Shown piece by piece: positions 29,636 to 60,577 of a DNA stretch of 64,000 nt. The notes under the pieces are model-generated. The model did not search any database, was not told the origin of the DNA, and saw only the letters and a program-made list of their open reading frames with translations. Source of the stretch: Thamnaconus septentrionalis. Taxonomy: Eukaryota; Chordata; Actinopteri; Tetraodontiformes; Monacanthidae. The position numbers and the translations under genes were made by a program. Position 1 is the first letter of the stretch, and the number at the start of each line of letters is the position of its first letter. Where the stretch lies: assembly GCA_009823395.1 (NCBI GenBank), contig CM020509.1:5878001-5942000 (forward strand), given 5' to 3'.

Positions 29636-29638
<3 letters not shown>

Positions 29639-29674: not shown

Positions 29675-29678
<4 letters not shown>

Positions 29679-33100: not shown

Positions 33101-33164
33101 ACACCGACTGGGAAGGATTCAGAAAAACTGTGATAAAAAAAAAAAACGTGTGTGAAAAGTGTAC

Positions 33165-33165
<1 letters not shown>

Positions 33166-33243
<78 letters not shown>
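33166..33243. repeat. (GT)~30 then (GA)n microsatellite
   Basis: Long GT array passing directly into GAGA units. Confidence 0.95.
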
Positions 33244-38575: not shown

Positions 38576-38602
38576 TTAATAATGATAATAATAATACATT
38601 TC
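38576..38602. repeat. (TAA)n tract followed by TACATTT
   Basis: TAATAATGATAATAATAA then TACATTT, the same arrangement as 9971-10012. Possible retroposon tail. Confidence 0.5.
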
Positions 38603-39139
38603 GGTTGAATCACCTCAATTAGACGAAGAAGCTTTTTCGCCGTCTTGTCTCATCAACTCGTGTCTCCTGTGATGAATCAAAGCTATGCTAAAAATCACCA
38701 AAAATTATCGCAGCTGAATATGCATTTGCATTGTCAGTTTCACCAGTGGCAAAACTTGAATAAAAAAAAAAATCTAATTAATTACATTAATTAGATTAAT
38801 TATAGCCTTTGCAATCATTTAATCGGAATTAATCGGATTTTAATCGCATGTCAATATTTGAGTTGAGTTGGCGATGTTTGAGTTGCTTGGTTGTATTCGG
38901 CGCTCTGGCGTTGTTCGCTCCAGTGCTTGTATTTGCTGCAGCACTTTTCGGTGGTACTGGAGGCTTGAATTACTGCTGTGGAATGTAAACTCTTTGCGGC
39001 ACAGTTTGCAGTGAACCATCTCATCTTATCTCATCTGACTGTTTTTTGAATATAAATTTTCCATCCACCAAGCTTAGCAAGGCGGGGCTATTCGTTTCCT
39101 CCACCACCTTTGTTGTTGGTATCAGTAACTTGTTACCCC

Positions 39140-39140
39140 A

Positions 39141-39177
<37 letters not shown>

Positions 39178-39219
39178 CTACTACTACTACTACTACTACT
39201 CCTACGACTACTACTACTA
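39140..39219. repeat. (TAC)n trinucleotide repeat
   Basis: About 26 TAC/ACT units with a few CTC or CGA interruptions. Confidence 0.95.
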
Positions 39220-40918: not shown

Positions 40919-40963
40919 GACAAATTTCCCACTTGTGGGACAATAAAGTACATCATCATCTCA
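40919..40963 (+). mobile_element. LINE-like 3' tail
   Basis: Reads CAAATTTCCCACTTGTGGGA, then CAATAAAGTACATCATCATC. This is the AATTTC-GGGA-AATAAAGT tail layout with an ATC microsatellite end, matching the reverse complement of 23800-23830. The preceding ~100 bp could be the 3' untranslated part; no reverse transcriptase is visible. Confidence 0.6.
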
Positions 40964-43900
40964 TGGCAACGGACAACTAAGTGACAGAGTCCTGTGAAAC
41001 CGCTCCAGCGAATCTTGAAAACCTCCTAGAATTAGAAAGAGTTTGTGCGCCTTTTTGAAGTTGTTTTTGTCTTTTTTGGATGCAGAGCTAACGCACACAA
41101 TTCTTCAGATGTGCAACACCATCCTGTTATGCAACTAATTGGCACCAAACCATTGCATGGAAAGATGTCACTTAAAAAAAAACAAAAAGAAAACATAGAT
41201 TTTGTTGAAAGTTGGCTTAAAATTGTGTTTGATAAACACCGCCTGCCATTTTTTCCTGAAGTTGTTTTTCGGTCTTTTTATTTCTGTGCAGTGTTGCAGT
41301 AAATAATGTTGCTGATGAATTACCACACCTTGAGCTTCTGACTTCACCAGTGCACAACTTTCTCACGGAAAAAAGATTTGAAACAAGATTAGCTCTGTCT
41401 CGCTAATGTGTGACCACGATGTTGCTGCCTGCTGGTGAAGCACTGACATCTTCCTCTTCAGGAAAATGGGCCGAGAGCAACACCGAGCTCCATCAACATC
41501 ACCTGAAATTGTCCACGCTTGACCTTTAAAGCTGCTTCATCCCGGGAGGTTCTGACCTCACAGCTATTTGCTGACAGCTTGACCTGCGTCGAATTAGCCT
41601 GATTACCTGAGCTTGAACTGACCTTTGAGGCTCTGCGTTAGCCCCGGCTGACTGGTTCGGCTCCGCTCACGTCAGGTTCTTTCTGCTGAGCGAGCGCTTC
41701 TGATCGGACCCGGTGGAATCATCGCGAGACGTCTCGTCACCACAGGGATGATTAATGCACGGCCAATATTTGCAGCTGCTGGGGTTGACGTCAACCGCCG
41801 GCTAGTGCCTGAGTTTATCATTCTGCCATTTGTCGCTGCGCTGTCAGTCTGTTGGTTGTCAGCTCACTGCTGATTGTCAATTATTCTGATTCACGATTGA
41901 CTTGAGAACAAATGCAGTTTCTTGACAGAGCATCGGGTGAAAAGAGCCTCAGATTAAGATTAGGTTTAGGTTTGGGTTTACAGATGTGTCAGGCTCGTTT
42001 ACACAAAGGGTCACATGAGCTGGTTGTTTAATTGCAATCAATCCTTTACTTTTTAATAACTGTCTCCGTGTGATTAGTGTTATTATTCAAGACACCAATA
42101 TTCCTCCTGCATTTCCCTGGATGTGAAAATAATTACAGGCGCTGTAGTTGTGTGTTGTTATGACATAAATCAGTTTAATTTATTTATTTAGGAAGCCCTC
42201 ATTGATATACCGATATCAAACACAAGTTTCTACATTGACTTATTTAAAACTTTAAATTACATCCTTTCCGCATCCCTCTTCATCAGTCTCTCGTCTTGGA
42301 CGTTTTGTTTTGCACACTTTAAAGCGTCGAGGGCGTTGCAAAAACACCCCGGACGGTTGACAAACGTGTCTAACTGGGCTCCCGTCAAACTCGACGATGC
42401 CTCTGCCGTGAGGGACCCACTCTGTGTTTCAAGTGTCTCCTTCTCAACATGTCTCCAAATGGAACTGATAGGCTGTCGACCGTCTAATCTATAGCTCTGT
42501 GGTCCTGCAGTGGAAGATCCCTCTGCAAACAGTCTCATCATTGGATTCAACTCCAGACGCCTTTCAAAATAGAAGAGACGAGCCGCGTTGTCAATTTGTA
42601 GGCATCACACTAATAAGAAAGCCACACTCTTTTTTTTCTTTTTTCTCTGGCCGCAGCCTGGGGATTCACCTGCATCGGCTCTGCGGCTCCTCTGCAGCCG
42701 ATTGTGTGTTTTTTTCTTTCTTTTTTTTCCTTTCTGAGGGATTGCTCGGGTGTGTTAACGCCGCTTTGTGCTGCAGCGCTCGCCGCCCTTCAGCTTCGCT
42801 CAGAATGAGGTGCAGGTGTTGAGCAGGTGCCGGCAGAGCAGATGCGTCGCTACGCTCGTTTGGCTTGGCAGGACTAGCGCAGCTCTCCTCTGTTCTCGGG
42901 CAAATGAAGCTGCTGGAAGGAGGGAGAAGCGCAGAGAGTTTGTTAGGAAGGCAGTTTGCACACGAGCAAAAAGAAAGAAATTAGCCGTAAGAAGAATGTA
43001 TTATAGAGAAAGACGGAGTCCGATATAAACAATATATTGTGCGCCATATAATGTGCGTTGTGTAGCATCGGCTTACATTTGCATCTGTCAGCGTCTGTGA
43101 GAAATTCTGACCTTGACCCGCGAGGACGTATTTAATTTGAATCTGCTTTACATGTATTAGGTTCAGGCTGTGTACTGTACATGTCAGGGTTTCCTGTCAG
43201 CGTCTCAGCCGTCAATCAAACCGCTTCAGCTCGAGCTGAGAAGTCCATTAACTGCGCTGGGTTTATCTCCACTGTATTGAATTAGTCGTCTGGCCTGCAC
43301 TGTTTTTCCTCCGCGCTCGTGAAGGATCCTGCAGAGATCTGAGACACTGAGGCTTCTTAAAATGTATGCTATTCTCCTTCTAGGTCGATTGTAGTTCCCA
43401 GACATTACATATTAACTACTTCACTGTTTGTTCACATCACAAATTGTGCTTGAAAAGAAATCTTCTAGCTGTATTCAGTAATTGTGAATGTGATTCTCAA
43501 AGAAACACAAACCACCGACTGGAGTAAAGCATCAATATTTAATCAAACGTTGAAGTTGATTCAACTCATTTTGATTGTCCTGACATAACCCCGTTTAATT
43601 GCTTGCCAGTCAGGGTGAGAATTTTATTTTTAGGATTATTTTTTTTCGCCACTCTGGAGCCATATCAGCTCCATCAGTGCAAACAAGTCCCTGAACGGCG
43701 CTTTTATGCTCCAAACAACTGTCACTAGGAAAAAAACAACAACAAAAACAACATTTATTAGATTTGAATATTTGCCGTATCTGCCAAACCTAGCGTGGTC
43801 GATGCTTTGCCGCTTTCTGAGGCGCCGCTCTCCGACTGTGAACGGAATCACTTGGAGGAGCCGCGTTCAAAGCGTCTGGCGGAGAGAATGAAATAAATAA

Positions 43901-44008
43901 ACCGGAGCCTTTTGAACTCGTTTCTCTGCTGCCGCTGATTTAACGAGACTCAAATAACAATCGTCAGCCGCGTCACGTCGGTAATCCACCTTTTTTGCTC
44001 TTTTGCAG

Positions 44009-44201
44009 TACGACTTTGTGGAGCTGCTGGACGGCAGCCGCCTCATCGCCAAGGAGCACCGGACCGCCCTGGAGCCCGACCACCCGGTCGCCGTCCACCA
44101 GGCCGGGTTCATCCAGTACCTGGACTCCGGCGTCTGGCACCTGGCGTTTTACAACGACGGCCGCAACGTGGAGGCCGTGTCCTACAACACCATCGTCCAG
44201 G
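44009..44201 (+). CDS. tenm3: Teneurin exon: ectodomain segment before the EGF repeats
   Basis: Acceptor CTTTTGCAG|TAC, donor CAGG|GTGAGT. It encodes 64 codons: [18 protein letters not shown], then a linker [13 protein letters not shown], then [20 protein letters not shown] and [13 protein letters not shown]. The blocks [14 protein letters not shown] and [18 protein letters not shown] are my main reason for choosing teneurin-3 over teneurin-2, whose equivalent (YDFMERLDG) differs. Other teneurins carry a basic RxxR-type furin site in this linker. Here the linker is shorter and acidic, with no RxxR. The domain lies between the stalk and EGF1. Confidence 0.95.
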
Positions 44202-45279
44202 GTGAGTGGGACACCTGCGGCGTAGTGACGTGTTTGTTTTTCTGTTTTTTTCTTTCCTGAAAGGTCCAGTGTGTAAGATTTGGCTTAATTTATGATTTTT
44301 ATATTGGTTAAAGCTTTAACCTACTGTCCGTAAACACATGAATAAAAGTGTATACCCACAGTACAATTAAAGTAATTTGGTTTTCCTACCCATAAAACAA
44401 GGGATGCACCGATACCACCAAGGTTCAATTGTAACTACAGAGAAGCCGAACGTCTTCATTTCCGCGTCACCTTGAAGGCGAATCCATATTTATGTGGATG
44501 GGCGCCTGTTATTTTTCCCTCAGTGCCGTAACACAAGACCACACAGAGCATTGATCCTCACCGTCTAGGAGCCCGCCTGTGAAATTTCCTTGTGGGTTTT
44601 TCACATTGTGGGGGGGGGTGAAGGGTAGAGAGAGAGAAAAAAAAAACAAACAAACACTGATGTTGAGTTAAAAGTTTTTATTTTTCCATCTCCATTGGGG
44701 AGTTTCATCGATCCGGCCCTTCCAAACACAAATACCAGTGAGGTCAGGGGAGGAGGAGGGAAAAAAAGACTGGATGGCTCCCCGATGGCGGCTGCAGTCA
44801 TAACAGAAATGTTTTCCCTATCAGGACGGGGGCGTCCCGGCGGTCGGAGGGGAAATGCGGGGGGGAGGGGTGGCGGCCTTTGACGAGTGATGCCCTGTTG
44901 ACTGAGGCCGGGCGGCGTGTGCGGCGTGCGTGCAGGTGAACCTCGGCTCGAGGGAGGAAGCCAAGTGCGAGCGGCCCCGGCAGGCTGCGTGTTGTGCAGG
45001 CACCATCGCTCTTCCAGCGGGCCAGTCGCAGCAGACGGAGCAACGTGCTCGGTCTGAATGCAGCGAAGCCTCTGTTTCTCTTAACGGGCTCTGACAGGAA
45101 CAGCACGAGGGACGGCAGTTCAGCGGCTTACACACCAATATCTGCCTGAAGAAAAAAAAAAAGGGGGTGGGGGGGTGCCTCAAGTCCAAGTGGTTCACTG
45201 AGGGATTTTCAATATTTTTCCTTTATTGTGGCCACCTGACGAGCTATTGATAGTCCACTGCTTCCTTCCCTGCTCGCAG
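44202..45279 (+). other. Intron before the EGF1 exon
   Basis: About 1.1 kb, GT-AG. It holds a half copy of the TTTAAAGG element close to its donor and a G run near 44609. No exon. Confidence 0.85.
44260..44385 (-). mobile_element. Half copy of the TTTAAAGG inverted-repeat element
   Basis: AAAGGTCCAGTGTGTAAGAT, then TTTTTATATTGGTTAAAGC and AATAAAAGTGTATACCC align with the reverse complement of about 4430-4560. The other half of the element is not convincing. It starts 58 bp after the donor of the exon at 44009. Confidence 0.65.
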
Positions 45280-45381
45280 ATTCCGTCACCGAGTGCTCGC
45301 ACAACTGCTATGGCAACGGAGAGTGTGTGGCAGGTTCCTGTCACTGCTTCCCAGGGTTCATAGGGCCCTACTGCTCCAGAG
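45280..45381 (+). CDS. tenm3: Teneurin exon: EGF repeat 1
   Basis: Acceptor GCTCGCAG|AT, donor AGAG|GTAATT. 102 nt, phase 1 at both ends, so it is a skippable module. With the previous exon's G it reads [20 protein letters not shown] and then [14 protein letters not shown]. Six cysteines in EGF spacing are present (ECS, HNC, ECV, GSC, HC, YC). The wording GNGECV.G.CHCFPGF.GP.C is the classical first teneurin EGF. Teneurin EGF arrays dimerise the protein on the cell surface. Confidence 0.95.
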
Positions 45382-46275
45382 GTAATTATCCTGCTCTTTC
45401 TTTTTCCAGCTGGTGTTGCTTCTCTTGCATTTTCTTTCTTCTCACATCAGCCACCAGTCAGCAAAAAAAGGGAGAAATGTATAAATAAAATTTGAATCCT
45501 GCTTTTGAATCAGTGAAATGTCTTGTGTGTTGCGTGTTTAACGTGTTTTCTTGCACGTTTTGAATTTCATTGCAAATATCTGGAGCTTTGGCACATCATG
45601 GGTACATCACCAGGAGGGCAACAGTTTAAATGTTTTAGAATTAATTCCTTTTCATATAATTTTGATTTATAATTATCACTCACTTTAGATTTATTATTGG
45701 TTATTATGATTGCCGGGCACATGCAAGGTCACTGTTTTTGTGTTTTAATCTACAAAATCTATTTAGTGTTCCACTTTGTTTTTGAAAAGGGTTGTTATTT
45801 TTCTAGCGCGGAATAATTTATTCAGTATCTCGACACCTGAAATCAATGTTGATAGGCTTCCAGAAATGAGATGTTTTTTTTCTTTCATCATCCATCAGAG
45901 GCAACTAAAAGAAAGCCTTCTTGTTTTCTCTCAGGCTGCAGTCAGGAAGCAATTTATCAGCAGCATTAACACGTTAAGCTGCATAATCGACAAAAACTTA
46001 ATAAGGCTAAACTTCACCGAGCATTATCTCACTTCACCCAACAGAAAATTATCATTTCCTTTTCTAAAAATAGGGTTTTTTTCTAATTTGGTATCCAAAT
46101 ATAAACTATAACAAAGTCAGAATACCTTCAAAACCTGACACCCATTCCATGTATATTAGTATTTTAAAAAAAAAACTAAATTTGCTGCTGTGTAAACAGA
46201 AAGGAAGTGAAAGCTATTTGGGATTTTTGGAGATTTGGAATTTGGGAATCTTGGGATTTCTGGTAGTTTTACGAC

Positions 46276-46321
<46 letters not shown>

Positions 46322-46327
46322 TCGTAG
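45382..46327 (+). other. Short intron between EGF1 and EGF2-3 exons
   Basis: 946 bp, GT-AG, AT-rich, ending in a CT microsatellite directly at the acceptor. No exon. Confidence 0.9.
46282..46323 (+). repeat. (TC)n microsatellite acting as polypyrimidine tract
   Basis: About 20 TC units with a single G interruption run to within 4 bases of the TAG acceptor of the EGF2-3 exon. There is no other pyrimidine tract, so the repeat itself must serve in 3' splice-site recognition. Confidence 0.9.
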
Positions 46328-46522
46328 CTGCTTGTCCGGTCCTGTGCAGCGGTAACGGCCAGTACACCAGGGGGCGCTGTCAGTGCTACAGCGGCTGGAA
46401 GGGCACCGAGTGCGACGTTCCCACCTCCCAGTGCATCGACCCGCAGTGCAGCGGGCACGGACTGTGCGTGGCGGGCAACTGCGTGTGCAACACCGGCCAC
46501 AAGGGGGCGCACTGTGAGCAAG
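46328..46522 (+). CDS. tenm3: Teneurin exon: EGF repeats 2 and 3
   Basis: Acceptor CTCGTAG|CT, donor CAAG|GTAGTT. 195 nt, phase 1 at both ends. It encodes [35 protein letters not shown], then [19 protein letters not shown] and [14 protein letters not shown]2 has only five cysteines because the third position is Tyr (GNGQY). This missing partner is a hallmark of teneurins: the unpaired cysteine in EGF2 forms an intermolecular disulfide in the cis dimer. EGF3 has a normal set of six. Confidence 0.96.
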
Positions 46523-47596
46523 GTAGTTAAAAAATAAAACTTCTTCCTTTCGGATTGAAAGCGGCGGCGGCGGCAACATATTTCTGCGCGAGGCTGCCGT
46601 GGGAATCGACACAGTCCATTGGTGAAACAATTGCTGCTTTCAACTCGGCTGAGCAGATAATACCCTGGTTGCTGTTATTGATACTGCGCTTATAAATTAA
46701 CCGGCTCCGGCGCCGGCCACATGAGGCCACGGGCTGCGGCAGATTGCGCGCCGCCCGCCGGTTCACCGGCCTATTGGATGGCTCCACAGCCGGAGACACC
46801 TGTTCAAATCGATCAGTCGATGGCATCTGTTCCCATCCGCAGAGCTTCTCTCGCCCTCGTCTCACTCCTCCGGCCCTTCACTTTGAAGCGCTCAGATGTA
46901 TTGATCCCATCCGGCGCAGACAAAAGGCAATTCTCAAGCTCAGATTTACATGTGCGGTTGACCTTACAACCGGCGGGCTATTGAGTTCGCCCGGAGAAAA
47001 TGCACCGTTTTCTTTTTTTTGTTGTTGGCTTTTTCTTTTTTTCCCTTGAAGCGAAACCATAAGGGGAGGAAGGAGTAGATTTGTACGTTGAGTGAATGAA
47101 TCGATCCCGAGGGTTAGCGATCCATATCCTGGTGTTTTTGTATATGTGTACGGAAATGCACCAAAGCGAGTGCAAAAAAAGCACTGAAGCCAATTACCCC
47201 CCTTGTTAGTAATGGGATGGTTGTGTCGGTCATAATTGCTCATTATTAACTTAGATCAGCAAGTTGATCCACAAATTGTTAATAGTAATTGATTATATTT
47301 GTCTAGACAGTAATTGCGCTGCTTTTTCGCCGGGCCTATCATGGAAGATAATTACGCTGTCAGTATATCGCCAGCGCCCTGTAATAAAGCGTGGAACAGG
47401 CTGGCCCCAACGCAGAGGTGGGGGGTAAAATTACCAGCAGTCGCTGTTAAACGCTGCAAAGTGCACGAGGCTGCGGCTCACCAGCCGTCATCCGGCGCCC
47501 TCAGCCGCAGAAAAAAAGGGTTTTGGCCCGGCGGCGAAATGAGCGGGTTTGATGTTCTTTCTGTCTGAGCGCTGACACCACTGTGTGCGTCCGCAG
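46523..47596 (+). other. Intron between EGF2-3 and EGF4-5 exons
   Basis: About 1.1 kb, GT-AG. Mixed composition, with short T and A runs. No exon or recognisable repeat. Confidence 0.85.
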
Positions 47597-47797
47597 TGGA
47601 CTGTCTGGACCCCTCGTGCTCCGGTCACGGAGCCTGTCATCACGGAGAGTGCCACTGCAACCCGGGCTGGGGGGGCATCAGCTGCGAGATCCTGAAGAGC
47701 ACTTGTCCCGAGCAGTGCGCCAATCACGGCACCTTCAGCACCGAGTCGGGAACCTGCGTCTGCGACGACAACTGGACCGGAGCCGACTGCTCCATAG
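47597..47797 (+). CDS. tenm3: Teneurin exon: EGF repeats 4 and 5
   Basis: Acceptor GTCCGCAG|TG, donor ATAG|GTGAGG. 201 nt, phase 1 at both ends. It encodes [36 protein letters not shown], then [20 protein letters not shown] and [14 protein letters not shown]4 has six cysteines. EGF5 has five, with Phe at the third position (HGTF), again the conserved teneurin exception that supplies the second dimerising cysteine. An N-glycosylation sequon, NWT, sits in EGF5. The phrase CEILK matches teneurin-3 better than teneurin-2 as I recall. Confidence 0.96.
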
Positions 47798-49041
47798 GTG
47801 AGGTTTTGCTTCTTTTTGGGTTTCATCCCCAGTAGAGGCCTGGGCTTTTTTTTATGTGCCCAACTGTTGCAGGTGGCAGTTAAACGTTATATAGGGACAT
47901 GGTTTTCAGGCCGACATCTACATTGATAGTCTTCTTTTTCCTCCAAAACAAGCAACAAAATTACACAAACTAAGTAAAAGCACAAAATGTATTAAAGGGC
48001 TGACTTGTACTTGCCTTTAAAGTCGGAGACAAATGCCTCATTAACTTTTAAACAACTGTAAAAGAGTGTTTTTTTTTCGCCTGATGAATAGATTCATCGA
48101 CTTCTTAGCTTTCTTTCGGTGCTTTAAGCCAGGCTTTTAAGCCTTTTTTGCAGCTTTGTAGCCCTTTTTTGTGTCTTTCCTTTTTGGACAATTGCACCAG
48201 CACAGCGAGGCTGCCAAAGTTGGAAAATGTTCAGCGCTAAACCGCGGCTTCAGAAACAATGAAGGGGAATATTAATTCACTTCTGCTCGTTATCGGCAGC
48301 AAGGCCTTTTATGGTGTTTGGTAATTTATTGAACAACATCCTGGCAAACAGCTCCTTCATTTCTATACCGTCTTTTCTTGTTTTGCAAGAAGGTATTTAC
48401 TTCTTCCGGCAAGTCGCCGGCTTCTCCTTTTTTCTAACGTATTTATTTAAAGTGAACTCTCCCTCCTACTGTGCACAGACGGCGCAGGCACCGAGCGCCG
48501 ACGGCAGCAGATGTACGAGTTGTTTTCAACAGAGTCTGGTGCAAAATAAGAGCCTGAATTCACGATGCACCGAGACAAATGTATCATAATCATTCAACAC
48601 TGAAAGGGCAAAATATAAAGCATGTTTACTATCAAAAGTACACTTCTTTTTATTAGTTTCAGTTTTTGGTGGGTGCGAGATTTTCAAATGGATCTTAAAA
48701 TGCAGTTTTAGTGTATTTTCCTGCCACACACACACACACGGAAGTGATGATCAGTCAATAAGCAGGAATGGCCTTGGAAGGTGTTGATTGACTTGCCTGA
48801 CTGACGCTTTTATGCAAGACCTGCAGCTGCTGCTGCATTTTATTTAGTCATTTATGTCAGTTTCCTCACATCCAGCAAAGAGTAATGAATCAATAGATCT
48901 TTACCATCACTGCAATGTGTACAACAAATTAAAAAAAAGGCCACCCAGTCGGCGCATCACTCAAGTAGCAGATGTAAAGTGCACAACCAAAGAAGACGCC
49001 CATAGAAGTGATTGGCATATGGACAAAAACCCTCAAGGAAA

Positions 49042-49323
49042 CTTGGGCTGCGTTCAGACTGCAGGCGATTCTGATTCAAATCAGATTCCTTCTCAAATCT
49101 GATTCTTAGGGCAGACTGGAGAGGCTGTTTGGAGCTGTTCAGACTGAGATGCATCTGTGCCAATGCGATTTGAAACTACCTCCCGAAGGTGGTTTCAATC
49201 CGTTTTGCAAAAATCAGATTTCATGTCATTTGTGACTGTTCAGACTACAAAAGAGCCACCCGGTTTCTATCTGGATGGGCTAAAAATCAAATTTTGGGGC
49301 TGGCTGTCTGAACACGGCTAAAG
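49042..49323. mobile_element. Inverted-repeat DNA element, short copy
   Basis: Left end CTTGGGCTGCGTTCAGACTG. Right end, reversed, CTTTAGCCGTGTTCAGAC. It is inverted relative to 27441-27930 and lacks that copy's central ~220 bp, so it looks like an internal-deletion derivative of the same family. Confidence 0.78.
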
Positions 49324-50929
49324 TGTTGCTGAGGTGTAGAAGGGTTGTCGAGCTGAAACCTGAACTAAGTTCTGCCCCGCTCTGAAATTCTGTGACGAGT
49401 TACCAGGTTACTGATGGTGACGAGAGTGGTTGTGGTTTGATCTTTGCTCAGGTGACAGGAAGCTGTTGATGTTTGTTTCCAGCCAGCGCCTGCAGCCACT
49501 TAGCAGAGGTTCTTGATTCGCTTGCAGCTTTGAACCCAAATTAAACTGATAGGGACGAGGGGGAAAAAAAACGAAAAGTCAAGCTTCGCTAGGTTTGAGA
49601 CCGCGGGTGTGATCACAACCCTCATTGTCAGTTGATCAACACTTGTGGCTTTGCGCTGGTTTTTGAAACAGACCATATGTCGTCAACAAAGCTTTGGCTC
49701 CCAACTCACACCGACAAGCATATGTTCCTTTCTTTTCATTTTCTTTTTTTATTTTTCACAAACTGAGAAAAACTTTTTTTTTTATTTCCCTGGGTGTGAA
49801 AAAAGGAAAATATTTGTGAATTGTCCAGTAGTTGCTCCTGTGTTTTTTCTTTCTCTATTTCTGCTGCCTGGCTCGGCACAGAGGAGGTGACACAGTCACA
49901 TGTTCCCTCTCTTTCTCTCCCTCGGTCTCTCTTCTTTTTACCAGTTTTGTATTCAGACACGTTTCCTCTCGACACGCGTTAGGTGACATGTTGGTTCACA
50001 GGCCGGCCCCTCCCATCTGTTATCTGCGCCGGAGCCTGGGCGCGGTGATTTATGCAGCACGTCCCCCCCACAGGACAGATCCATCCTCTGCCTGGCAAAG
50101 CTGCAGATAAAGCCATGCGGCTGCACTCAATCCAGCAATTAATGGCATAAGTTGTGCTCCTGTTTTTTTTATCGTAGACAATCTGTCAGCCGTCTTCGAG
50201 CAGGTTTGATAAAAGGTCCCGTATTATTTTTTTCACGGTCAGATCTTGAATTTTTACCCCCAAACTCCAGTGAGGCCCCAGCACCATTGAAAACTTCCAC
50301 ACGTTTGGAAGGTCCTGGCTGGGATTATGGTGCCAAATCTGGGACCAAGGTTTTCTCAAGACAGTGATGTTGTTAGTATAGGCAGTAGTTATGACGTGAG
50401 AAGGGAAGTTTCTGCCACTGGTTTGTGCCACTGATTTGTTTTCTTTTTCCATCCGGAGTTAAATTAAGCAGCTCCACATAGTTAACTGAAAGCTTGAGAG
50501 ACCTCCACGACGCAGCATCTTCATCCCTTTGCAGCTGCCTGCAAAAACTCAATGTTTTTCACCTTGTTTCCTTGTTGCTGCTAAAGCAGAGCCTCCACAG
50601 GTCTAACAAGACAAAAAACCTTTTTGCCAAAATATCGCCCCTTATTATATCATGTTGAACAGCAAGTTTCCCATTGTTTCATTAAATGGGCAATTTCTGC
50701 CACTTTTATCACTATAAGAGGAAAAACTATAAAATATTACCGTCGTCTCCCAACCTCGTAAAAAGTTGCTACATCCATAAAATGTTGTCGTCATTTAAAA
50801 GGACCATTTTAATCTTTATCGGTCCCATTTTAGACTCAGGGTTACCCCCCCTCTCCCCATTGTAAAGAAGCCAACAAACACTTTATAGTCCCTTAAAACA
50901 TCACAGATCTTTAGAAATCAGCACATATC

Positions 50930-51090
50930 CCTCTGTTTACAGCCTGTTGGTAAAACTGATGCTTTGTTCAACCGTTGATGTGTTGCTGAAGGGAAGAAAA
51001 ACAAGGCGGTAGGTGTCGTCACTCGACTGGGAGAGGCATCAGTGCCCTTTGTGACATCACAAAGCGCATGTTTTATCAAACGCCTCCCCA
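50930..51090. repeat. Dispersed repeat with TGTGACATCAC, uninterrupted copy
   Basis: Contains CTGTTTACAGCCT, AAAACAAGGCGGT and TCAGTGCCCTTTGTGACATC. The same blocks occur in the same order at about 58390-58545 and 59070-59110, where another element splits them. Confidence 0.6.
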
Positions 51091-52831
51091 GAAACCGAGC
51101 AGTCAAAAGAAACGAAGGATGGATTCTCCTCATTTCTGGGTGGTTGGCCGGCAGAGGTGCATTGATCGGTGGTAATGAATGCTTGCATCACGCGGGACCT
51201 TTAAAAATGTTGGCTAATATTCTGGAGATGAGAGATGTTGCCGCGGGCTGCTCGGCTGGGCTGCGGAGACGATGGTGTTGATAAGCCAGGATTTTATTAA
51301 TTTTCCGCACGTGTCATTTCACGGAGATAACAGAGTGATCCATCTCGGCTTCGTCAGTCGCTCGGCGCCGTCGCCTCCCTAAATGCTGGCGAGCCACCTC
51401 ACCTGGGCGGGCGAAGGAGGATTCCCGGCTTAATTCATGCTGCGATTCTTCTTCAATTAAATAAACTTTAATTAACAAGAGACTAGCAGGGATCGACCGC
51501 CTGCAGCCCCGATCCGGCTCCAGTCTCGGGCGTGTTAAAGGCAGATAAACACTTTTGCGCTAATGAAAAATTGATTGCATTGGATTCTATGGGAAGGAGG
51601 TAACCCTTTGGAATCAAATGACTCTTCTCCAGAGGCACGCTTAATATTCTACAGTGTCGGCTCGACTTAATCTGAACCATCCAAGGTCTCTCCATCGAAG
51701 AAAAACTCTAATCACTGGGCTGGAAACAGAAGCAGGAGAAGCTTCGCTAGCCGAAGGGGGCGGGGCCACGCTGGCCTTGAAGAAACTCCATCAGAATTGC
51801 AGCTATTTAATCCACGACGGCGCCACAACGTCTCCCAGCTAATTTGCTCTCCCCGTAGCCGGCAGCCAACTTTTATTTAAAAGAAAAACTTTTTTCTTTT
51901 TTATTTTTGTTTAGTTATGGATGCAGGCCAAATTTTCTTAAGCATCCAGTCACTCCAGATACGAGGAGCCACTCGAGCCACTTTCCTCGAGCGCGCTGAC
52001 GCCGGCGGAAAGTTTTATGGCTCTCGTGTGGAAAAAAAAATAAAAAATTCTTTGATCGGAGCTCTTGGTTCCAGTAAATGAACATTCCTCATTCCCTTAC
52101 AAGAGCAGCGGCTCACTCTCTCACTTACCACCCATGGATTCAATCTCTTGAATCTCTTTTTTCCCCCAAGATAACAAGGATCTATAACAGCTGCTCTGCT
52201 GCTTCTGATGGTGTATCTATGTTGTACATACGTGTGTGTGTGTGTGCGTGGGTGCGTGTTTGGACTTAACATCTCTGAGTTCAGACGAGATGCAAATGAG
52301 CTCTGAGGATTTTTAAAATCTAAAGGAAAAAAGTGGCTGTTTGGGACGTTTCTAGAAATGCGAAATCATTTCCGTCCGTGTTGTTTCCCCAGCCGGCCGG
52401 ACGGCGACGGCGACGGCTTCTGTTTCCGTCGTCCGCCGTTCTTCAGCACTCAGAGGAATAAAGTGGCAGGAGAAATTACGAGTCTTTTGATAAGGATGAG
52501 CTAAAGTGGTGTCGGAAATGACAATAATAACCTGCACCACTTTGACACAGGGCTGCAAAAAGAGAGGAAATCAAAAAATAAATGCCCCAGACATTATTTG
52601 GCTGTAATTATTGAGAGAAATATGAATCGTGCGGTGAGCTTTGATGTCATTTCAGATGGAGAGGAGAAGCCTTTCCCTCCAACCGGGTCTGTTTGCTGAT
52701 AAGCTAATTAGTCCATTTTTTCCGCTGCTTTTTCCCTCCATAATAAAGATGTAATCTCAGATATCACACATCTGCTGTCAGCATGACTGAGAACATTGTG
52801 TTTCTCTTTGATGTCCCTTCGAAGGTTTGTA

Positions 52832-52838
<7 letters not shown>

Positions 52839-52900
<62 letters not shown>
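52839..52900. repeat. (TA)~31 microsatellite
   Basis: Uninterrupted TA array. Confidence 0.97.
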
Positions 52901-52905
<5 letters not shown>

Positions 52906-53052
52906 CTATCAGCATGGATTCATCACTTGTTAATCACTTCCTGTATGGCCCGAGAATAATGGATGGCACAAAAAAATGTAAGGGCCTTCGTAATGACCCG
53001 ACCCCTGCACTAAACACCCAGACTCATTTCGTACACCGATTAATCTTTTCCT

Positions 53053-53054
<2 letters not shown>

Positions 53055-53083
<29 letters not shown>
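53055..53083. repeat. (CA)n microsatellite
   Basis: About 14 CA units. Confidence 0.95.
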
Positions 53084-53088
<5 letters not shown>

Positions 53089-54229
53089 CACATTTTTATG
53101 GTAATAATTGGCTGCATTTGCAAAGTGGCAGTCAAATTACGCTTGATTTGGGATTCAGTGCTGGAAAATGTCTTGTGTCGTGCATATTCAGAACCGGGTG
53201 ATAACGACAGAGCAATAATGTCCCAAATTTTTCCCATTTCCTCTAATGCTTTTGGAATGATTTACAATTATTACACTTTATGTTCTCTTCAGACTGAATA
53301 TTTCCAAAAAACAAAAAACAAAAAACAAAAAATCAGTTCTGCATTTTTGGACTTCAGTTCTTGCAGCTTTTCCGCCCTGAATACACATCGGTGCATGGTG
53401 CACACGGTACGAAGGTAGTTTCTGTCAATGCTTAGTGCTCATAGACTCGGCCTTCTGCTTGTTCTTGCTTTGCACAGCACAATCAGTGGCGATGAGTTAA
53501 ATCAAATCCAATCTAGTCTAATGGAGTCTAAAATGACTTTATTAGTGTCATCTTGTCCCGTCTGCAGTGATGCCTCCAGAGTGTTTTCTGTTCATTACTG
53601 TGTTTTATGCCCTTTAGAGTGAAGGGTTCTAAAAGCTTTTCAGATATATGCAGATCCACTCTTATTTTATTCTAATAAGTCATTTCTATTTCTTGTTTTT
53701 CTTGTTTTTTCAGTTTCTTACACTCTAGTTTTATTTTTAACAAAATTATAGTATCTGCCCCTCATACATACTTGTTTTGTGCATTGTGTTTATACTGGAA
53801 TGGTCGTCTCACTCAATAATTTAGTATTTATACAGTAACGAAGAAGGCTCTCTTGCTGCTTTGCACACGCACTGATCAGTGAGTTTAATCTACCCTAATC
53901 CGTTTAGTCCAATCTAAACTAAAACTGACCTAACGTTGTCTGAGCTGCATCCTGCTCTGCATCCTGTTCACATTCTCATGAAAACCCTGTTCACATTTCA
54001 AACTTCTCGGCCCACTTCTTGGGAAAGCAGTCGACACTTTGCCGCGGCCACTGGGGCATTTTTCACCACTTGTCAGTCGCATCTGCAAAGAATACCAAAA
54101 TGCAGCCGCGCGGCGCTTTCCTCGCAGCAGAAGCGACGTGTCTGCGTGTTTCTTTGTGAATTTATTTATTTATTTGTGTTGTTATTTATTTATTTATGCA
54201 TTCCTATCCCCCGCCCTCCTCTCCGACAG

Positions 54230-54415
54230 AGGTGTGCGTGGTGGACTGCGGCCCCCACGGATCGTGCATCAGCGGTGTGTGTCAGTGCGAGGAGGGCTGG
54301 ACGGGTCCAGAATGCGAGCAGAGGGACTGTCACCCACGCTGCATCGACCACGGAGTCTGCCGGGATGGCAAGTGTGACTGCCACCAGGGCTGGACGGGTG
54401 AACACTGCACCATCG
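54230..54415 (+). CDS. tenm3: Teneurin exon: EGF repeats 6 and 7
   Basis: Acceptor CTCCGACAG|AG, donor ATCG|GTGAGA. 186 nt, phase 1 at both ends. It encodes [31 protein letters not shown], then [20 protein letters not shown] and [11 protein letters not shown]. Both repeats have six cysteines. The CTI end is the point where teneurin transcripts are alternatively spliced before EGF8. An AC microsatellite begins 7 bp after the donor. Confidence 0.96.
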
Positions 54416-56952
54416 GTGAGACGCACACACTCGCAGAGACACACACACACACACACACTCGACACAAGGCTACAAACTGGGGAGGGAAATGTGATGATGG
54501 GCCGACTGGAAAAGAAGGCATCTTTGGAGTGCGACAGTGCGTCAGTACTTCCAGAGATGTCGGAGCTACTTCAGCTGTGTGGAGGTGAACTCCCCTGCAT
54601 CTCCTTCACATTAATGTTTAATGCAACTGGGGCAGCGTGTGTTAATTCGTGGGATAGTTTCACTTTCCGCTGCTTGATTAAGTAAAGGATAGACTTAAAA
54701 TATGGATTCCACTCAGTGTTATTTTACATTCATTTACCAGCTGATAAAATGTGACTCTGACTCTCACCTGATTGGACGCTGACTTAATAAATTCCCGAAA
54801 TATCTTATAGGCCAGAGCTGGACATACAAATCATCCATTTGTACACAATTGCATGTAAGATCATATATTGTCGTCATGCAAACAACGAGAAACAAAATTT
54901 CTGCCCAGTTGAAGTGCAGTTTTTCACATCAGTTCATTGAAAAATGATGCAAAATGTTTCACGCGCCACATCTGTTTAGCTACGAGCATCTAATTATGGA
55001 ACTATATGTATATGTCCTATGGAATTCATCATAGTAATGCAAGGAGTTTATGCACAGAAAGTATCTCTTTCAAGTGATTGCACACTTTTACTTTGACTTG
55101 TGATCTTCTGTCCCCACAACAGAGACAAAGGGATCTGACACCCCCCCCCCCCTCCCCCGCTCTCTTTCAGTCGCCTCCTAACATCTGCAGTTCTTTTTCT
55201 CTTCCCCCCAGTCATCTATTCAGCTATTCCACCTTTCGCACCCCTGAAGTGATGCTCCGTTATTAGCGAGTCAAGGGCAGGTACTGAGGGAGCCCGCGGA
55301 GCCACGGGCAGGGCCTCTCTGGAATATCATTTCCCTGAAATGGCAGCGCTCCACCTGGCATTAATGAGGATAATGAGTCCTGAGATGTGGCTCCTCGTTG
55401 ACCCCTAACTCCGACTTCCTTGACACGACGCCCCCTGTCAAAGGTGCGGCGGTTAAACCCCTGACGCGCCGCGTCGGACGGCGCTCGCACAAGTGGCGTC
55501 CCGGCGGCCGACACTCCTGCGGAACGAGGATCCGGCCCGGTTTCAAAGTGTTGAACTCTAATTACGTATTTACAAGTTCTCCTCCAGTCCCGTCAGCAGC
55601 GGAGAGGGAGAGAGAGCCGCTCCCACGGTGCCGCTCCTCCTCGCTCTGCGTGTGTGTGTGTGTGTGTGTGTGGAGGGGTCATTTCTCTTCCTGGTAATCC
55701 TTCCTTCCTCAGGGCCGACTGTGCACCACATATATTTCCTTTTCTTAGGCTCCCATCAGGAATGCAGCGCCTCCATGCAGCTCTGGATTTTTGTATTATA
55801 TTTTTTTTTGGGGTGGGGGGAGGGGCTGAATGCTCGGCGCCTTCGCCCGTTTCTGGGCGACACAGGAGCTTATTTTGTCTTTCAAGGCCTTGAGTGACCG
55901 CTGTTAGCACAAAGCGCCTTTTAATCACATTACACGCCGCCCCGACTTGAATGGAGGACTTCCTTGGTCATTCTTTTGTCCCGAGCATCTAGATCCAGTT
56001 TTCTTTTTCTTTTTTTTCACGCCAGGCCTAATCCACCGCCGCCGCACTCTCTGCAAAATGCACTTCATGCACAAAGGTGTTTTTGACTGGCTTGCTTTCT
56101 GCACCGCTGTTATTTTCCTATTTATTTTCGGTGCCTCGCAGTTGTCGGGAGTCGCTAGAGTGGAGACGGCGGAAAAATTGGGATTTCAAAAAATAAAAAA
56201 GATCCCGGGTTGGGGAGGATGGGATGGAACACGGGGTTTTTCTAGCGACATGATGAGATGCTTTTAGGCCGGCGGGGTATTCCTTTTTTTTCTTTTTTTC
56301 TTTTTCAGAGCCGCTCCTCCAGACGAGCAGACGGCAGAATGTTGTGGTGTGTCTCGGTGTGAGGAAAGAAAACAAAGAGCGGAAGGGAAAGAAACAACAG
56401 GAAAAAAAAAAAGCAGCAGCGCCCGTCCGTCCCTGATGTGTTGCCTCGTCGAACGCAAAGCAGATGTGAAGCGTTAACAGCGAATGTGTAATCCGGCTGA
56501 ACCAAGGATCCTGAATTAATTTCTGCTTTGCCTCGGACAGACAGACAGAGTCGTATTTCGCACGGCGGCGGCGGCGGCGCTTTGGATCAGCGGCGAAGCT
56601 GCTGCAAGCCTGATTAATCGCTCTCACACTTTTTTTTTTCTTTTTTTTTTAATCAACTTCCCCATGTAAAAGTTTGCCAAAAAAACTTCTTTCTTCTCCC
56701 CTTCACTCGAGCCAAAGACGATTAATATTCTGCTTCTCGTCTGCAGCTTCTCTCCTCCGCCGGCTCTCTACTTGTGTGTTGATCTTCTCTTTACACACCT
56801 TTTATTTCTCGTTTTTTTTTTCTTCTGTCCACAACTGGTACTTACGTCCGCTCTCTTCTCCACCCTTTGTCCGTATGCCTGTCTGCCTGCCTGCCTGCCT
56901 TCTCTGTCTCTCTCCCTCGCCTTCCAACTCCCTCTCTGGCTTGCATGTGTAG
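54416..56952 (+). other. Intron between EGF6-7 exon and first microexon
   Basis: About 2.5 kb, GT-AG. It contains an AC microsatellite beside the donor (54422-54459), a C run near 55141, a GT microsatellite at 55649-55672 and a strong C/T tract with TGCC repeats before the microexon. No other exon is recognised. Confidence 0.8.
56942..56947 (+). promoter_or_regulatory. TGCATG (RBFOX-type) motif upstream of microexon
   Basis: TGCATG ends 3 bases before the AG of the microexon acceptor. It is the known RBFOX binding element. It also contains UGC close to the 3' splice site, the SRRM4-type signature of neural microexons. Function is inferred from position. Confidence 0.5.
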
Positions 56953-56973
56953 CCTTGGATTCCAGAGTATCAG
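56953..56973 (+). CDS. tenm3: Teneurin microexon 1 (21 nt) between EGF7 and EGF8
   Basis: A long pyrimidine tract ends GCATGTGTAG|CC, and the donor is TCAG|GTAACA. Both ends are phase 1. Using the G left by the EGF6-7 exon it encodes ALDSRVS with no stop and joins the EGF8 exon in frame. Vertebrate teneurins are known to carry a small alternatively spliced insert exactly here; the tetrapod form I recall begins AHYLD, so the shared A and LD support homology. The insert changes the linker between EGF7 and EGF8 and so may change dimer geometry and partner choice. The call rests on position, phase and splice signals, since seven residues alone are weak evidence. Confidence 0.72.
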
Positions 56974-57240
56974 GTAACAAGACACTTTTTTTGCCTCTTC
57001 TCACACCTTGCACAGTCTTTAGAGAGCCTCTGAACATGTGAACTCTTTCTTTTGCGAAAGCGGGAAAAAAAAAGGAAAGATAAATAAATCAGAGCAGAAC
57101 GGCCTTGGTGTGACTGGAGAGCAGCTCCGTCAAACTCGTTCACGCCAGGCTCCGCGGGCTGATTTACATGCGCAGCCGGGAGATTGAAATTAGGGCGGAA
57201 ACTGAAGCGTGCCGAAGACAACTGTAATCTCGGGGTTTGG

Positions 57241-57295
<55 letters not shown>

Positions 57296-57372
57296 AAGCT
57301 TCTTATTCAAATATTTTAAGATCAGTAATTTTTTTTTCTCCAAATGTTTCCCTTTCCTCGGTTGTGTAATAG
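56974..57372 (+). other. 399-bp intron between the two microexons
   Basis: GT-AG. Its main landmark is a pure GA array of about 21 units at 57245-57287, 86 bp before the second microexon. Confidence 0.75.
57245..57287. repeat. (GA)~21 microsatellite
   Basis: Uninterrupted GA array upstream of the second microexon. Purine-rich GA repeats can bind SR proteins. Confidence 0.97.
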
Positions 57373-57396
57373 GAGCAGTCAAGATAGGATATAAAG
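57373..57396 (+). CDS. tenm3: Teneurin microexon 2 (24 nt) between EGF7 and EGF8
   Basis: Acceptor TTTCCCTTTCCTCGGTTGTG then TAATAG|GA; donor AAAG|GTAAAT. Both ends are phase 1. With the upstream G it reads GAVKIGYK, then the next exon's DGCPGLC. The KIGYK ending matches the DKIGYK-like segment I recall after AHYLDKIVK in tetrapod teneurin-3, which makes chance unlikely. It would be used alone (8 extra residues) or with microexon 1 (15 extra residues). Splice signals are good. It is too short for standard gene predictors and could be missing from automated annotation. Confidence 0.78.
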
Positions 57397-57418
57397 GTAA
57401 ATGGAACCACCACACCCC

Positions 57419-57477
57419 TCCCCCACCCACCTCCTACACCCCCCACCCCCCCACCCCCCACTCCCACCCCCCCATTC
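57419..57477 (+). repeat. C-rich tract after microexon 2
   Basis: CCACC and CCCCCAC units over about 60 bp, starting 23 bp beyond the donor. In RNA such C runs bind poly-C proteins. Confidence 0.8.
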
Positions 57478-57590
57478 AGGGAGATTGTCCCGGGCAATCC
57501 CTCCCCGCTCTCTGTCTCCTCCAAGCACGGCGTTCTACACACCTGTTCTATGTCCGAGTCGACCATGATGTTTTTCTCCGCTGTGATCCC

Positions 57591-57626
57591 GCTCCTCCTC
57601 CTCCTCCTCCTCCTCCTCCTCCTCCC
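57591..57626. repeat. (CTC)n trinucleotide repeat
   Basis: About 11 CTC units. A second, shorter array lies at 57821-57847. Confidence 0.92.
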
Positions 57627-58389
57627 CTCCACCCCCTAAATATGTCCCCTCATTTCCTGTCCGTCTAAACTAGCTACGCACAGACCCCACCTCCTGTCTT
57701 TTTAACTCCCTGTGTCTGCCAGATTAAACGCCCAGAACTTGGTGTGGTTTAGTCGTGTTTTTTTTTTTTTTTTTTTTCCCTCTCCGGCCACTCCGTCTCC
57801 ACCGAAGCACCCCCCCACCTTCTCCTCCTCCTCCTCCTCCTCCTCCTGTTAGAAGGAATGCAGTTTGGCAACAGACACTGTGTGTTTATGTACATGCAGA
57901 GACTCTGTAGGTTCATCGTTTCCTCACTACTACCCCCCCACTACACTTTTTTCTGTTCTTCTATGTTAACTCCCTCCGTTGTCGCTGTTACTTCACATGA
58001 GTCTTTTGGAAAGTTCGCTTTCCACTTCAGTTATTTTGGTTTTTTTGGGGGGAAGGAAAAATCGTACATCATTACGCTAGTGTATAAGACAGGAAGTCCC
58101 CCTCCCTTCCTCTCTTTTTCATTGCATTTCAACACCAAATCAAAGCTTTCCAATGCTACCACCCTTCCCCTGCAAAGCCAAGGTTTTGATCAAAGAAATA
58201 AGTCACTCTTTGAAAATAGAACATCCGTAATATGTAGGCTGACCTTTGAATGAGTCATTTAACCTTTAAAGTTTCCATATTTGACCCATCTTCCAATTAC
58301 GTTTTTTTGTTCATCCTGGACCGTCAAAAAATGTATCACCCCTCTCCCCCTCCCCCACACCCTCGCCAAAATATCCAATATCATATCCG

Positions 58390-59110
58390 ATTTAGCCCGC
58401 TGTTTACAGCCTCCCACAGAAAACTGACTTCCTGCTGGAACTGATGCAATGATGGACCTTTCATGTCACGTGTGGAAGGGGACAAAAACAAGGTGGTGCG
58501 AGAGGGCGGAGCCAACAACCTGGCTGGGTGGTGATGTCACTGGCTGGGTTTCCATGACCCCTAGAATTGTGAAAAACCTAAATATCGCAATAAAAAACTG
58601 GTATTGGAAACGCCTAAACTTCCAAAAAACTCTCAAATATGGCTAAGAGGATTTGACGCTCTCATGGGGTGGTTTTTCAGACGTATCCATATAGAGGTAT
58701 ATAGCAAAAGTATCATGGAAACATTTTATTTGCATTTACGTGTCAGCAGACGTGACGTACGGGGTCATGTGACCAGTTCACTTCAAGTGAAAATGGCGCG
58801 TTATGTTTGGACGGAGGAAGATAAATATTTTTTACAAGTAATCAAAGACAAAAATATAGCAAACAAACGTAAACAAACAAAAGCAAACGTAATTGTCGGA
58901 AATCTTGCAGGACGAGATTTTACGAGAATTACGTTGTGTGTTCCGACAATTCTCGCGGGATAAGATTTTACGAGAGTTGCGGCTTCTGCGCTTCACACCA
59001 TTCAATGGAAACACCTGCAAATCGCAATTGTACTTTGACGAAATTATGAAAACATCGCTTTTATATTGCAGCTACTGTCAGTGCCCTTTGTGACATCACC
59101 AAAGACTGAT
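58390..59110. repeat. Dispersed repeat with TGTGACATCAC, interrupted copy
   Basis: Left part carries CTGTTTACAGCCT and AAAACAAGGTGGT. Right part carries TCAGTGCCCTTTGTGACATC. These blocks are close together at 50930-51090 but are separated here by about 530 bp of unrelated sequence. Confidence 0.6.
58545..59073 (+). mobile_element. Harbinger-like non-autonomous insertion with Myb-like gene remnant
   Basis: Left end GGGTTTCCATGACCCC; near the right end the inverted phrase CAATGGAAACACC. Between them an ATG at 58793 opens a 56-codon frame beginning MARYVWTEEDKYFLQVIKDK. This resembles the start of the Myb/SANT-like DNA-binding protein that PIF/Harbinger transposons encode. It stops soon after, so it is a fragment. 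The element sits inside another repeat that has an uninterrupted copy at 50930. Exact ends and the 3-bp target duplication are not resolved. Confidence 0.55.
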
Positions 59111-59610
59111 TTTCTACAGCCCTGGGTTGTAGCGCGCAAAAAGGTGGAACAAGCAAAAGAAGCAAAGCACAAACGTGTCTTCAATCTGGGTGCGTTCACT
59201 GACTGACTGGGCTGCGTTAGGGAGCAATGTGAATCTCATCTGATGGGACCTTTGAGACGCGGCTGCTAATTTCAACCTCTCCAAGATTAGACTCAGCTTC
59301 CAATGGCAGTTCCTCCCTCTGCTCATCATGTGAACGTGTTCGCAGGCCTCACCGCCGCTTTGCCCTCCGGCTCAGAGTAGCTGCACGCGCTCCCTGACAA
59401 ACAAAACTCATGTGAAACGACAGTAACTGCTCACACCCCCTTCCCCATATCTCAGAGTCCTGTCAGAGGTGTATCATACTGTACGTTCACCCAACAAAAA
59501 AAAAAAAACAACTTGTCTTCTATCATGTCTCCCTCCCCTGTTCCCCTCCCCTGACCCCTGACCCCCTGCTCCTCCTGATTTCTCCGTATCTGTGGCCCGG
59601 CTCTCTGACG

Positions 59611-59616
59611 TGCATG
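59611..59616 (+). promoter_or_regulatory. TGCATG (RBFOX-type) motif upstream of EGF8 exon
   Basis: TGCATG lies 15 bases before the EGF8 exon. It is the second such motif near the microexon cluster. Confidence 0.4.
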
Positions 59617-59631
59617 TGAATGTTTTGACAG

Positions 59632-59778
59632 ACGGCTGCCCGGGGCTGTGCAACAACAACGGCCGCTGCGTCCTCGATCAGAACGTCTGGCACTGCATCT
59701 GCCAGTCAGGGTGGCGAGGGCTGGGCTGCGACGTGGCCACAGAGACGCTCTGCTCTGACGGGAAGGATAACGAGGGAG
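59632..59778 (+). CDS. tenm3: Teneurin exon: EGF repeat 8
   Basis: Acceptor TTTTGACAG|AC, donor GGAG|GTAGGT. 147 nt, phase 1 at both ends. It encodes [35 protein letters not shown] and [17 protein letters not shown]8 has six cysteines. The METLC.D.KDNEGDGL.DC continuation, an acidic calcium-site-like motif, runs into the next exon and is typical of the family. The wording DQN.WHC.CQ.GWRG.GCDVA is closest to teneurin-3. Confidence 0.96.
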
Positions 59779-60345
59779 GTAGGTCCACGAGAAAGAATAC
59801 AAAAGATGAGGAAGAAGAAGAAGAAGCCTGGTACAAATAGTCTGTTAGCTCATGTGCACGTCTCTCTATGTGTGCGACACTGGGAGGAGTGGAAAAACGA
59901 GAAGCGACTTTGATGTGGCTCCTCGGTGACGGCGAAAAACAAACAAAACAAATCAATCATACATAAAACATCAGTGGGATATGCTAATGCCTGCGGCGGC
60001 GGGGATTGTTAAGCTGTGCGCTTTTAAAATATACAGTGGATCAATTAGAAAGACGGCTTTTTGGGAGTGTGACGCTTTCCGGAGCCAATCGGCTGCTCCT
60101 CTGTCGTAAACAGGACGCCCTTCCCAAAACACTACGGAGACACTTGGAAAAACAAAACCAGTCACGTAGTCATTCCAGGTATCTTCTTATTGCCACCACT
60201 GTGTGAGTCACAATCACACCCTGTGCCCCCCCCCACCCCCACCACCCCAGGAAACATCTCTGCCTCCGCCACTGCTCCTTGACGTCGGGCATCGTCTGTG
60301 CGTTCGACCCCTCAACCCCTCGCTGTCACCGCTTGTCTCTTCCAG
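59779..60345 (+). other. Short intron between EGF8 and cysteine-rich exons
   Basis: 567 bp, GT-AG. It holds an A-rich stretch and a transposon-terminus remnant near the acceptor. Confidence 0.9.
60250..60274 (-). mobile_element. DNA-transposon terminus remnant (CAGTGGCGGAG type)
   Basis: On the minus strand it reads GCAGTGGCGGAGGCAGAGAT then GTTTC, matching the terminus at 19858 with opposite orientation. It ends 71 bp before the following exon. Short, so chance similarity is possible. Confidence 0.4.
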
Positions 60346-60577
60346 ACGGCCTCGTCGACTGCATGGACCCGGACTGCTGCGCTCAGATGGCCTGCCAGGG
60401 TCAGATCTACTGTCGCGGCTCGCCCGACCCCGTCGCCGCCGCCATCGCCACGGCGACCGGACAGGCCCAGGGCTCCGGCGGACAGCCGCCGTCCAAGAGC
60501 TTCTACGAGCGCATCGGCTTCCTGATTGGTCCCGGCGGCAGCCACGTGGTGGCCGGGGAGAACGCCTTCAACAGCAG
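60346..60577 (+). CDS. tenm3: Teneurin exon: cysteine-rich region after the EGFs
   Basis: Acceptor CTCTTCCAG|AC, donor CAGCAG|GTATGG, leaving in phase 2. It encodes about 77 residues: DGLVDCMDPDCCAQMACQGQ, IYCRGSPDP, a variable Ala/Gly/Gln-rich linker (AAAIATATGQAQGSGGQ), then SKSFYERIGFLIGPGGSHVV and GENAFNSR. The DC.DPDCC, SPDP, SFY.RI.FLIG and HV..GE..FN motifs are those of the teneurin segment that leads into the Ig/fibronectin-like plug and NHL propeller. The Ala/Gly/Gln linker is expanded relative to the form I recall. The next exon is not in the window. Confidence 0.96.

Follow-up and report, generated by a model that had tools for sequence, protein, structure and literature searches.

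The intron between the EGF7 and EGF8 exons of a Thamnaconus septentrionalis teneurin gene holds two microexons whose exact peptides recur in other fish. The gene lies in a 64,000-nucleotide stretch of contig CM020509.1, which we call the window. We argue that the two exons, A1 and A2, are very probably cassette microexons at splice site A of tenm3B, that they go back to an ancient two-part insert, and that they tune the EGF7-EGF8 linker. The parts of this that are read directly from the sequences are the exon ends, the phases, the homology, the paralogue and the range of linkers across species.

Two microexons at splice site A

The two microexons and their neighbours are placed as follows.

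54230..54415, + strand: EGF6-EGF7 exon, upstream neighbour (EVCVVDCG...GEHCTI), with 61 of 62 residues as in Morone teneurin-3
56953..56973, + strand: microexon A1, 21 nt, phase 1 to 1, peptide ALDSRVS
57373..57396, + strand: microexon A2, 24 nt, phase 1 to 1, peptide GAVKIGYK
59632..59778, + strand: EGF8 exon, downstream neighbour (starts DGCPGLC, ends KDNEG), with 49 of 49 residues as in Morone teneurin-3

With its splice context A1 reads TGTAG/CCTTGGATTCCAGAGTATCAG/GTAACA (56953-56973) and A2 reads AATAG/GAGCAGTCAAGATAGGATATAAAG/GTAAAT (57373-57396). Both have acceptor and donor dinucleotides and neither has a stop codon. The EGF6-7 exon ends ...ACC ATC G/, leaving a single G at 54415, and the EGF8 exon opens /AC GGC TGC at 59632, so all junctions at the site are phase 1. 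A1 and A2 are short in-frame exons between the EGF7 and EGF8 exons, which is splice site A of the teneurins. The decisive evidence that they are real is that identical peptides stand in the same order and place in annotated fish teneurin-3 proteins. We regard the pair at 56953-56973 and 57373-57396 as confirmed by this homology. An earlier note on this DNA had claimed two consecutive, phase-matched, in-frame microexons of 21 and 24 nt encoding ALDSRVS and GAVKIGYK. Its coordinates, phases and peptides are all correct, and both peptides have exact fish homologues.

Identity of the gene

Residues 1-950 of Morone saxatilis teneurin-3 match ten exons of the window beyond the EGF6-7 exon. They run on the + strand from the intracellular domain at about 17.7 kb to 60.6 kb, and the matched part of the gene spans 17705..60575. 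The remaining exons found by this match, with approximate edges, are:

17705-17932, + strand: exon
25700-25951, + strand: exon, transmembrane
34590-34709, + strand: exon
36689-36907, + strand: exon
44006-44197, + strand: exon before EGF1
45282-45380, + strand: exon
46327-46521, + strand: exon
47596-47796, + strand: exon
60345-60575, + strand: exon

Compared with Morone, six residues (ETRARL) are missing from the exon before EGF1.

Two trees, one full-length and one short, were built from 53 teneurins picked by hand out of the 180 retrieved by then (54 rows with the window). Clade B, or tenm3B, has support 1.0 in both, and the window gene pairs with Morone at support 0.923. The clade also includes the si:dkey-237h12.3 records of goby, carp and Astyanax. 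Zebrafish-type tenm3 (tenm3A) groups apart from it. Since the window gene groups with clade B and apart from zebrafish-type tenm3, these trees make it the second teleost tenm3 copy, tenm3B, and not the zebrafish-type gene. It had been called teneurin-3, which holds for the family but needs correcting for the copy. Deep branching among the two fish copies, the eel and the bony-tongues is supported at 0.079 by the full-length tree; the short tree puts clade B outside the other tenm3 with support of about 0.5. A tenm1 identity, prompted by the DGCPGLC start of EGF8, is ruled out by the trees. A review, consulted like all papers cited here as excerpts, gives stickleback both Ten3A and Ten3B and zebrafish a single Ten3 (PMC6510184). 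No zebrafish clade B protein is among the retrieved teneurin records.

Linker forms in fish tenm3B

The 280 teneurin proteins retrieved are the best 120 of 151, 398 and 152 matches, with overlap, and the third search (152 matches) used an A1+A2 query. They are representatives of 90% clusters, which hide isoforms within one cluster. Paralogue bins rest on the best BLAST match to hand-picked references. The insect protein P0018 landed in the tenm3A bin and is excluded from the 180 tenm3 records. The linker did not parse in six records (two clade B, one insect, three tenm4), and five of these were then read individually: Alosa has AHYMDKVVK-DKIGYK, P0156 has AHFLDSKIK, and the unparsed tenm4 have no A2.

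Clade B holds 33 of the 280 proteins. ALDSRVS is found exactly in 12 of the 280 (10 fish species) and GAVKIGYK in 9 (7 fish species), always in the EGF7-EGF8 linker. The flanking exons were compared with the window in 10 of the 11 species that have either peptide, Coregonus being excluded as its model diverges inside EGF8. Here 530/620 (85%) and 459/490 (94%) of the flanking residues are identical, and the A1 and A2 peptides are invariant where present; most of these proteins are computer gene models, and models guided by homology would bias toward conserved peptides. The euteleost clade B records carry these linkers:

No insert: Neogobius, Mugilogobius, Phyllopteryx, cod, burbot
A1 only: Syngnathoides, Esox, Umbra
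A2 only: Stigmatopora
A1+A2: Morone, Coregonus, Hippocampus, rainbow trout, salmon, Osmerus
A1+VKIGYK: Synchiropus (P0005, ALDSRVS-VKIGYK)
Odd linker peptides (four records): Merluccius and three salmonid models

Linkers of +0, +7, +8, +13 and +15 residues are all found, each from different species. The four lengths that independent use of A1 and A2 had been said to give (+0, +7, +8 and +15) are thus all seen among relatives, in different species. The 11 zebrafish tenm3 records have no insert (4), A1 only (2) or A1+A2 (5). An insert is missing from six of the 33 clade B records (two gobies, seadragon, cod, burbot and Chanos), and this may reflect isoform sampling or loss.

Automatic models also have odd linkers at this site (ACVIYMVVLA, GKIQ, TCMTVLSVS and others), including the salmonid and carp records P0019, P0026 and P0045. 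These are probably gene-model errors, perhaps mis-called microexons, and not new exons. They are a caution for annotation at site A.

Ancestry of the two-part insert

Teneurin-3 has AHYLDKIVK-DKIGYK in mammals (Bos, Mustela, Meriones). Sturgeon has AHYLDKIVK-ADKIGYK, paddlefish AHYLDKIVK-DKIGYK and the ray Mobula AHFLDKIVK-ADKIGYK. A1 stands alone in the records of lungfish, gar, elephant shark, eel and bony-tongues. Among the clupeiform tenm3B, Denticeps has AYYLDKVVK-ADKIGYK, and Alosa was given above. The otocephalan tenm3B have AHFLD(S/G)KIK, to which Silurus adds DWIGYR, and Chanos is without the insert. The tenm3A of cypriniform and related fish reads AHPETYVQ-GERIGFK, and that of euteleosts reads AHNPDIRVK with or without GYK. 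It belongs to the explanation that we think highly probable as a whole that an insert made of an AHYLDKIVK-like A1 and an (A)DKIGYK-like A2 goes back to the tenm3 of jawed vertebrates, and that the window exons descend from it. The inserts of these relatives are known from proteins. They would likewise be split into two exons, since zebrafish records come with and without the second part and papers give mouse A1 alone.

The likeness of KIGYK and of A..LD to a tetrapod insert, as given in the earlier note, is borne out by Meriones, Mustela and Bos. However, KIGYK is not the end of the insert as it has been described: in the excerpts of PMC11058771, PMC5851990 and PMC6608557 the published mouse insert is AHYLDKIVK alone. 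A1 does differ from AHYLDKIVK as claimed, but this is not a fish-wide change. Among the retrieved records ALDSRVS is confined to euteleost tenm3B, and other fish have the A1 forms listed above for otocephalan tenm3B and for tenm3A. Most simply, ALDSRVS would be a shortened A(HF)LDS form of A1.

The pattern IG(Y/F)(K/R) finds the A2 tail in 58 of the 180 tenm3 records, or 59 with Alosa. Outside this pattern, 8 tenm3A records end KGYK or KGFK and 4 records (Denticeps) end LGGYK. The tail is in 0/96 tenm4, 0/2 tenm1 and 0/1 tenm2 of the retrieved records, with tenm1 and tenm2 thinly sampled. A tenm4 with A2 should have ranked high because the third search used the A1+A2 query. Among the retrieved teneurins A2 appears, by sequence, in tenm3 only.

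The closest known system is insert A of mouse teneurin-3 (AHYLDKIVK, PMC11058771). It belongs to the same family and is a small in-frame insert in the same EGF7-EGF8 linker, and its presence or absence alters subunit arrangement (PMC11058771). The mouse insert is single and 9 residues long. In the window gene, a fish copy, there are two microexons, of 7 and 8 residues; A1 is divergent and A2 has a tandem acceptor. The mammal, sturgeon, paddlefish and ray records have the same two-part insert in the same order as fish tenm3B, but with 9 + 6 or 7 residues where fish tenm3B has 7 + 8 (or 6). This A1+A2 form is known from protein records and not from a paper. The teneurin-2 insert A (PDB 9g2f, 9g2h) is also 9 residues long and sits at the same linker, but its sequence, GRQTAGTET, has no evident likeness to the tenm3 insert and it lacks A2. 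In receptor phosphatases of the ptprd type two microexons, meA and meB, likewise tune a synaptic adhesion receptor (named in PMC12626420). That is another gene family, and the comparison is one of logic only.

The literature that we searched, as text without figures or supplements, yielded no paper on a second site-A exon. KIGYK occurs in 0 of 5.39 million such texts. The labels A2B1 and A2B0 do not appear alongside teneurin among the matches listed, and no paper was found that has teneurin, microexons, SRRM4 and EGF together. The mouse isoform study is reportedly that of Berns et al. 2018. As far as we have searched, A2 is a variant of a known site that is real, old, already in public protein databases and unstudied.

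A tandem acceptor at A2

The acceptor of A2 is not a single site, a feature missing from the earlier note's account of the second microexon.

57370..57378, + strand: tandem acceptor TAG/GAG/CAG of A2, NAGNAG-type, consecutive NAG triplets
57385..57387, + strand: further TAG within A2, which would leave 9 nt coding GYK

The three acceptor choices give 24, 21 or 18 nt, that is GAVKIGYK, AVKIGYK or VKIGYK, all in frame. The 18-nt product VKIGYK matches the Synchiropus tenm3B protein. Sturgeon ADKIGYK and paddlefish DKIGYK fit a like slippage. In tenm3A, GYK follows A1 (AHNPDIRVK-GYK) in euteleosts such as Poecilia, Sparus, Monopterus and Syngnathus. The records P0144, P0153, P0157, P0161 and others have GYK or GFK after a 9-residue A1, and other records lack it. 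This GYK/GFK may be a 9-nt microexon. From the sequences we infer that VKIGYK, the sturgeon and paddlefish forms with and without A, and the GYK forms arose by acceptor slippage. The tandem acceptor would add the +13 form that is seen in Synchiropus and possibly +6 and +14 forms.

How the linker would be tuned

The scheme that we favour would work as follows. A1 and A2 would be included separately, and with slippage at the A2 acceptors this would give linkers of +0, +7, +8, +13 and +15 residues, perhaps also +6 and +14. Linker length would most likely affect two contacts, the docking of EGF6-7 on the YD shell and the pairing of EGF8 with the partner subunit's ABD domain. The docking and pairing state would in turn influence dimer arrangement and adhesion, with the fish cassette setting the spacer in more steps.

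The analogy is mouse Ten3 with and without A1. Without insert A, EGF6 docks in a groove that lies between the YD shell and the ABD of its own subunit. Once the 9-residue insert is present, the structure no longer resolves EGF6-7, and EGF8 is able to extend a beta sheet with the ABD of the partner (PMC11058771). For cell adhesion in vitro, an insert at A or B is reportedly necessary (PMC13269823). On this analogy linker length most likely affects adhesion. In Thamnaconus septentrionalis A1 and A2 would be regulated separately, and an effect of A2 is predicted. It must be said that the insert may have a modest effect, because the cryo-EM maps of four A/B isoforms of mouse Ten2 are strikingly similar (PMC13269823) and all Ten3 isoforms are compact with calcium (PMC11058771). 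In zebrafish 45 microexons were removed, most with little or no larval phenotype (PMC12626420). The literature searched yielded no experiment on A2.

One can argue instead that only A1 is used independently, that A2 is minor or an obligate companion of A1, and that site A is the two-state switch of the published accounts. A2 without A1 is indeed rare, found in 1 of the 180 tenm3 records (Stigmatopora) and in 0 of the 11 zebrafish tenm3 records. The excerpts of the papers treat site A as one insert, and there is no UGC upstream of A2. However, A1 often stands without A2, as in Esox, Umbra and Syngnathoides among others, and therefore A2 is not tied to A1. A2 also ranges from rays to mammals, and GAVKIGYK is invariant in the 7 clade B species that have it. 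We consider this alternative unlikely.

It is also doubtful, in our view, that the microexons act through the inserted residues themselves, for example with the basic KIGYK as a new binding epitope, and not through linker length. The G-Y/F-K end does recur in both fish copies and in mammals despite varied lengths. A1, however, is highly divergent among copies and lineages (AHYLDKIVK, AHPETYVQ, AHNPDIRVK, ALDSRVS), and this fits what one expects of a spacer. The published model, as excerpted, also has mouse A1 as a spacer (PMC11058771).

That A1 and A2 are chance splice-like stretches of the intron is next to impossible and is ruled out by homology, since annotated proteins from 10 species (A1) and 7 species (A2) have the exact peptides, in matching order and at the matching place. 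What favours chance is the number of open in-frame AG..GT candidates of 9-30 nt, 99 in the 5,215 nt of intron covered, and therefore splice-like ends alone are weak evidence. Three of the 99 survive a crude filter (YAG, pyrimidine tract and GTRA donor), and A1 and A2 are two of the three. This is weak support because the filter was chosen after A1 and A2 had been seen.

Wider reading

The preferred reading, in which cassette microexons tune the linker, can be carried further, if tentatively. Tenm3 alone among the teneurins might have had a site-A spacer with at least three states (A1, A2 and a sliding acceptor) since early jawed vertebrates. The two copies left by the genome duplication of fish would then have received different spacer sets, with hinge length helping to separate the adhesion code of one copy from that of the other, and A2 would act in the mammalian brain as well. 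In euteleost tenm3B the spacers are of 7, 8, 13 or 15 residues. In tenm3A they are of 9 or 12 residues in euteleosts and of 8 or 15 in cypriniforms. The subunit arrangement and the adhesion of teneurin-3 reportedly change with insert A (PMC11058771), and teneurin-3 helps set neuronal connections. The published structures and tests, as far as the excerpts go, used teneurin forms without insert A or with the 9-residue A1. If A2, which is old and specific to tenm3, is used in neurons, then the set of isoforms tested so far is incomplete in mammals and fish. The fish copies offer a natural series of linker lengths on which the spacer model can readily be tested.

Signals in the intron

The region upstream of A1 has one further feature.

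56942..56947, + strand: TGCATG, which holds UGC, 6 to 11 nt upstream of A1 and after a UC-rich tract at about 56880-56938

The TGCATG at 56942 is also an Rbfox-type hexamer. A pyrimidine fraction at least that before A1 together with TGC is found at 0.4% of the 1747 YAG sites of the window. SRRM4 microexons have a UC-rich tract and a UGC immediately before the acceptor (PMC12626420). This layout is present upstream of A1, and by analogy it may point to neuronal inclusion of the microexons. The UGC is absent upstream of A2, where the region is pyrimidine-rich. The plus strand of the window carries 14 TGCATG hexamers. The site-A intron has three of these, and one copy at 59611 lies just 5' of the EGF8 exon.

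No Rfam family matches the window at its gathering score. A (GA) repeat of about 23 copies lies at 57241-57287, between A1 and A2. An RNA stem between the CU-rich tract before A1 and this repeat was rejected: the two do pair when folded, but the fold is not exceptionally stable (z -0.95, with 2/20 shuffles as good). The intronic stretch 58740-59060 consists of two similar halves (GACGAGATTTTACGAGAATT, GATAAGATTTTACGAGAGTT) and by eye resembles the remnant of a mobile element.
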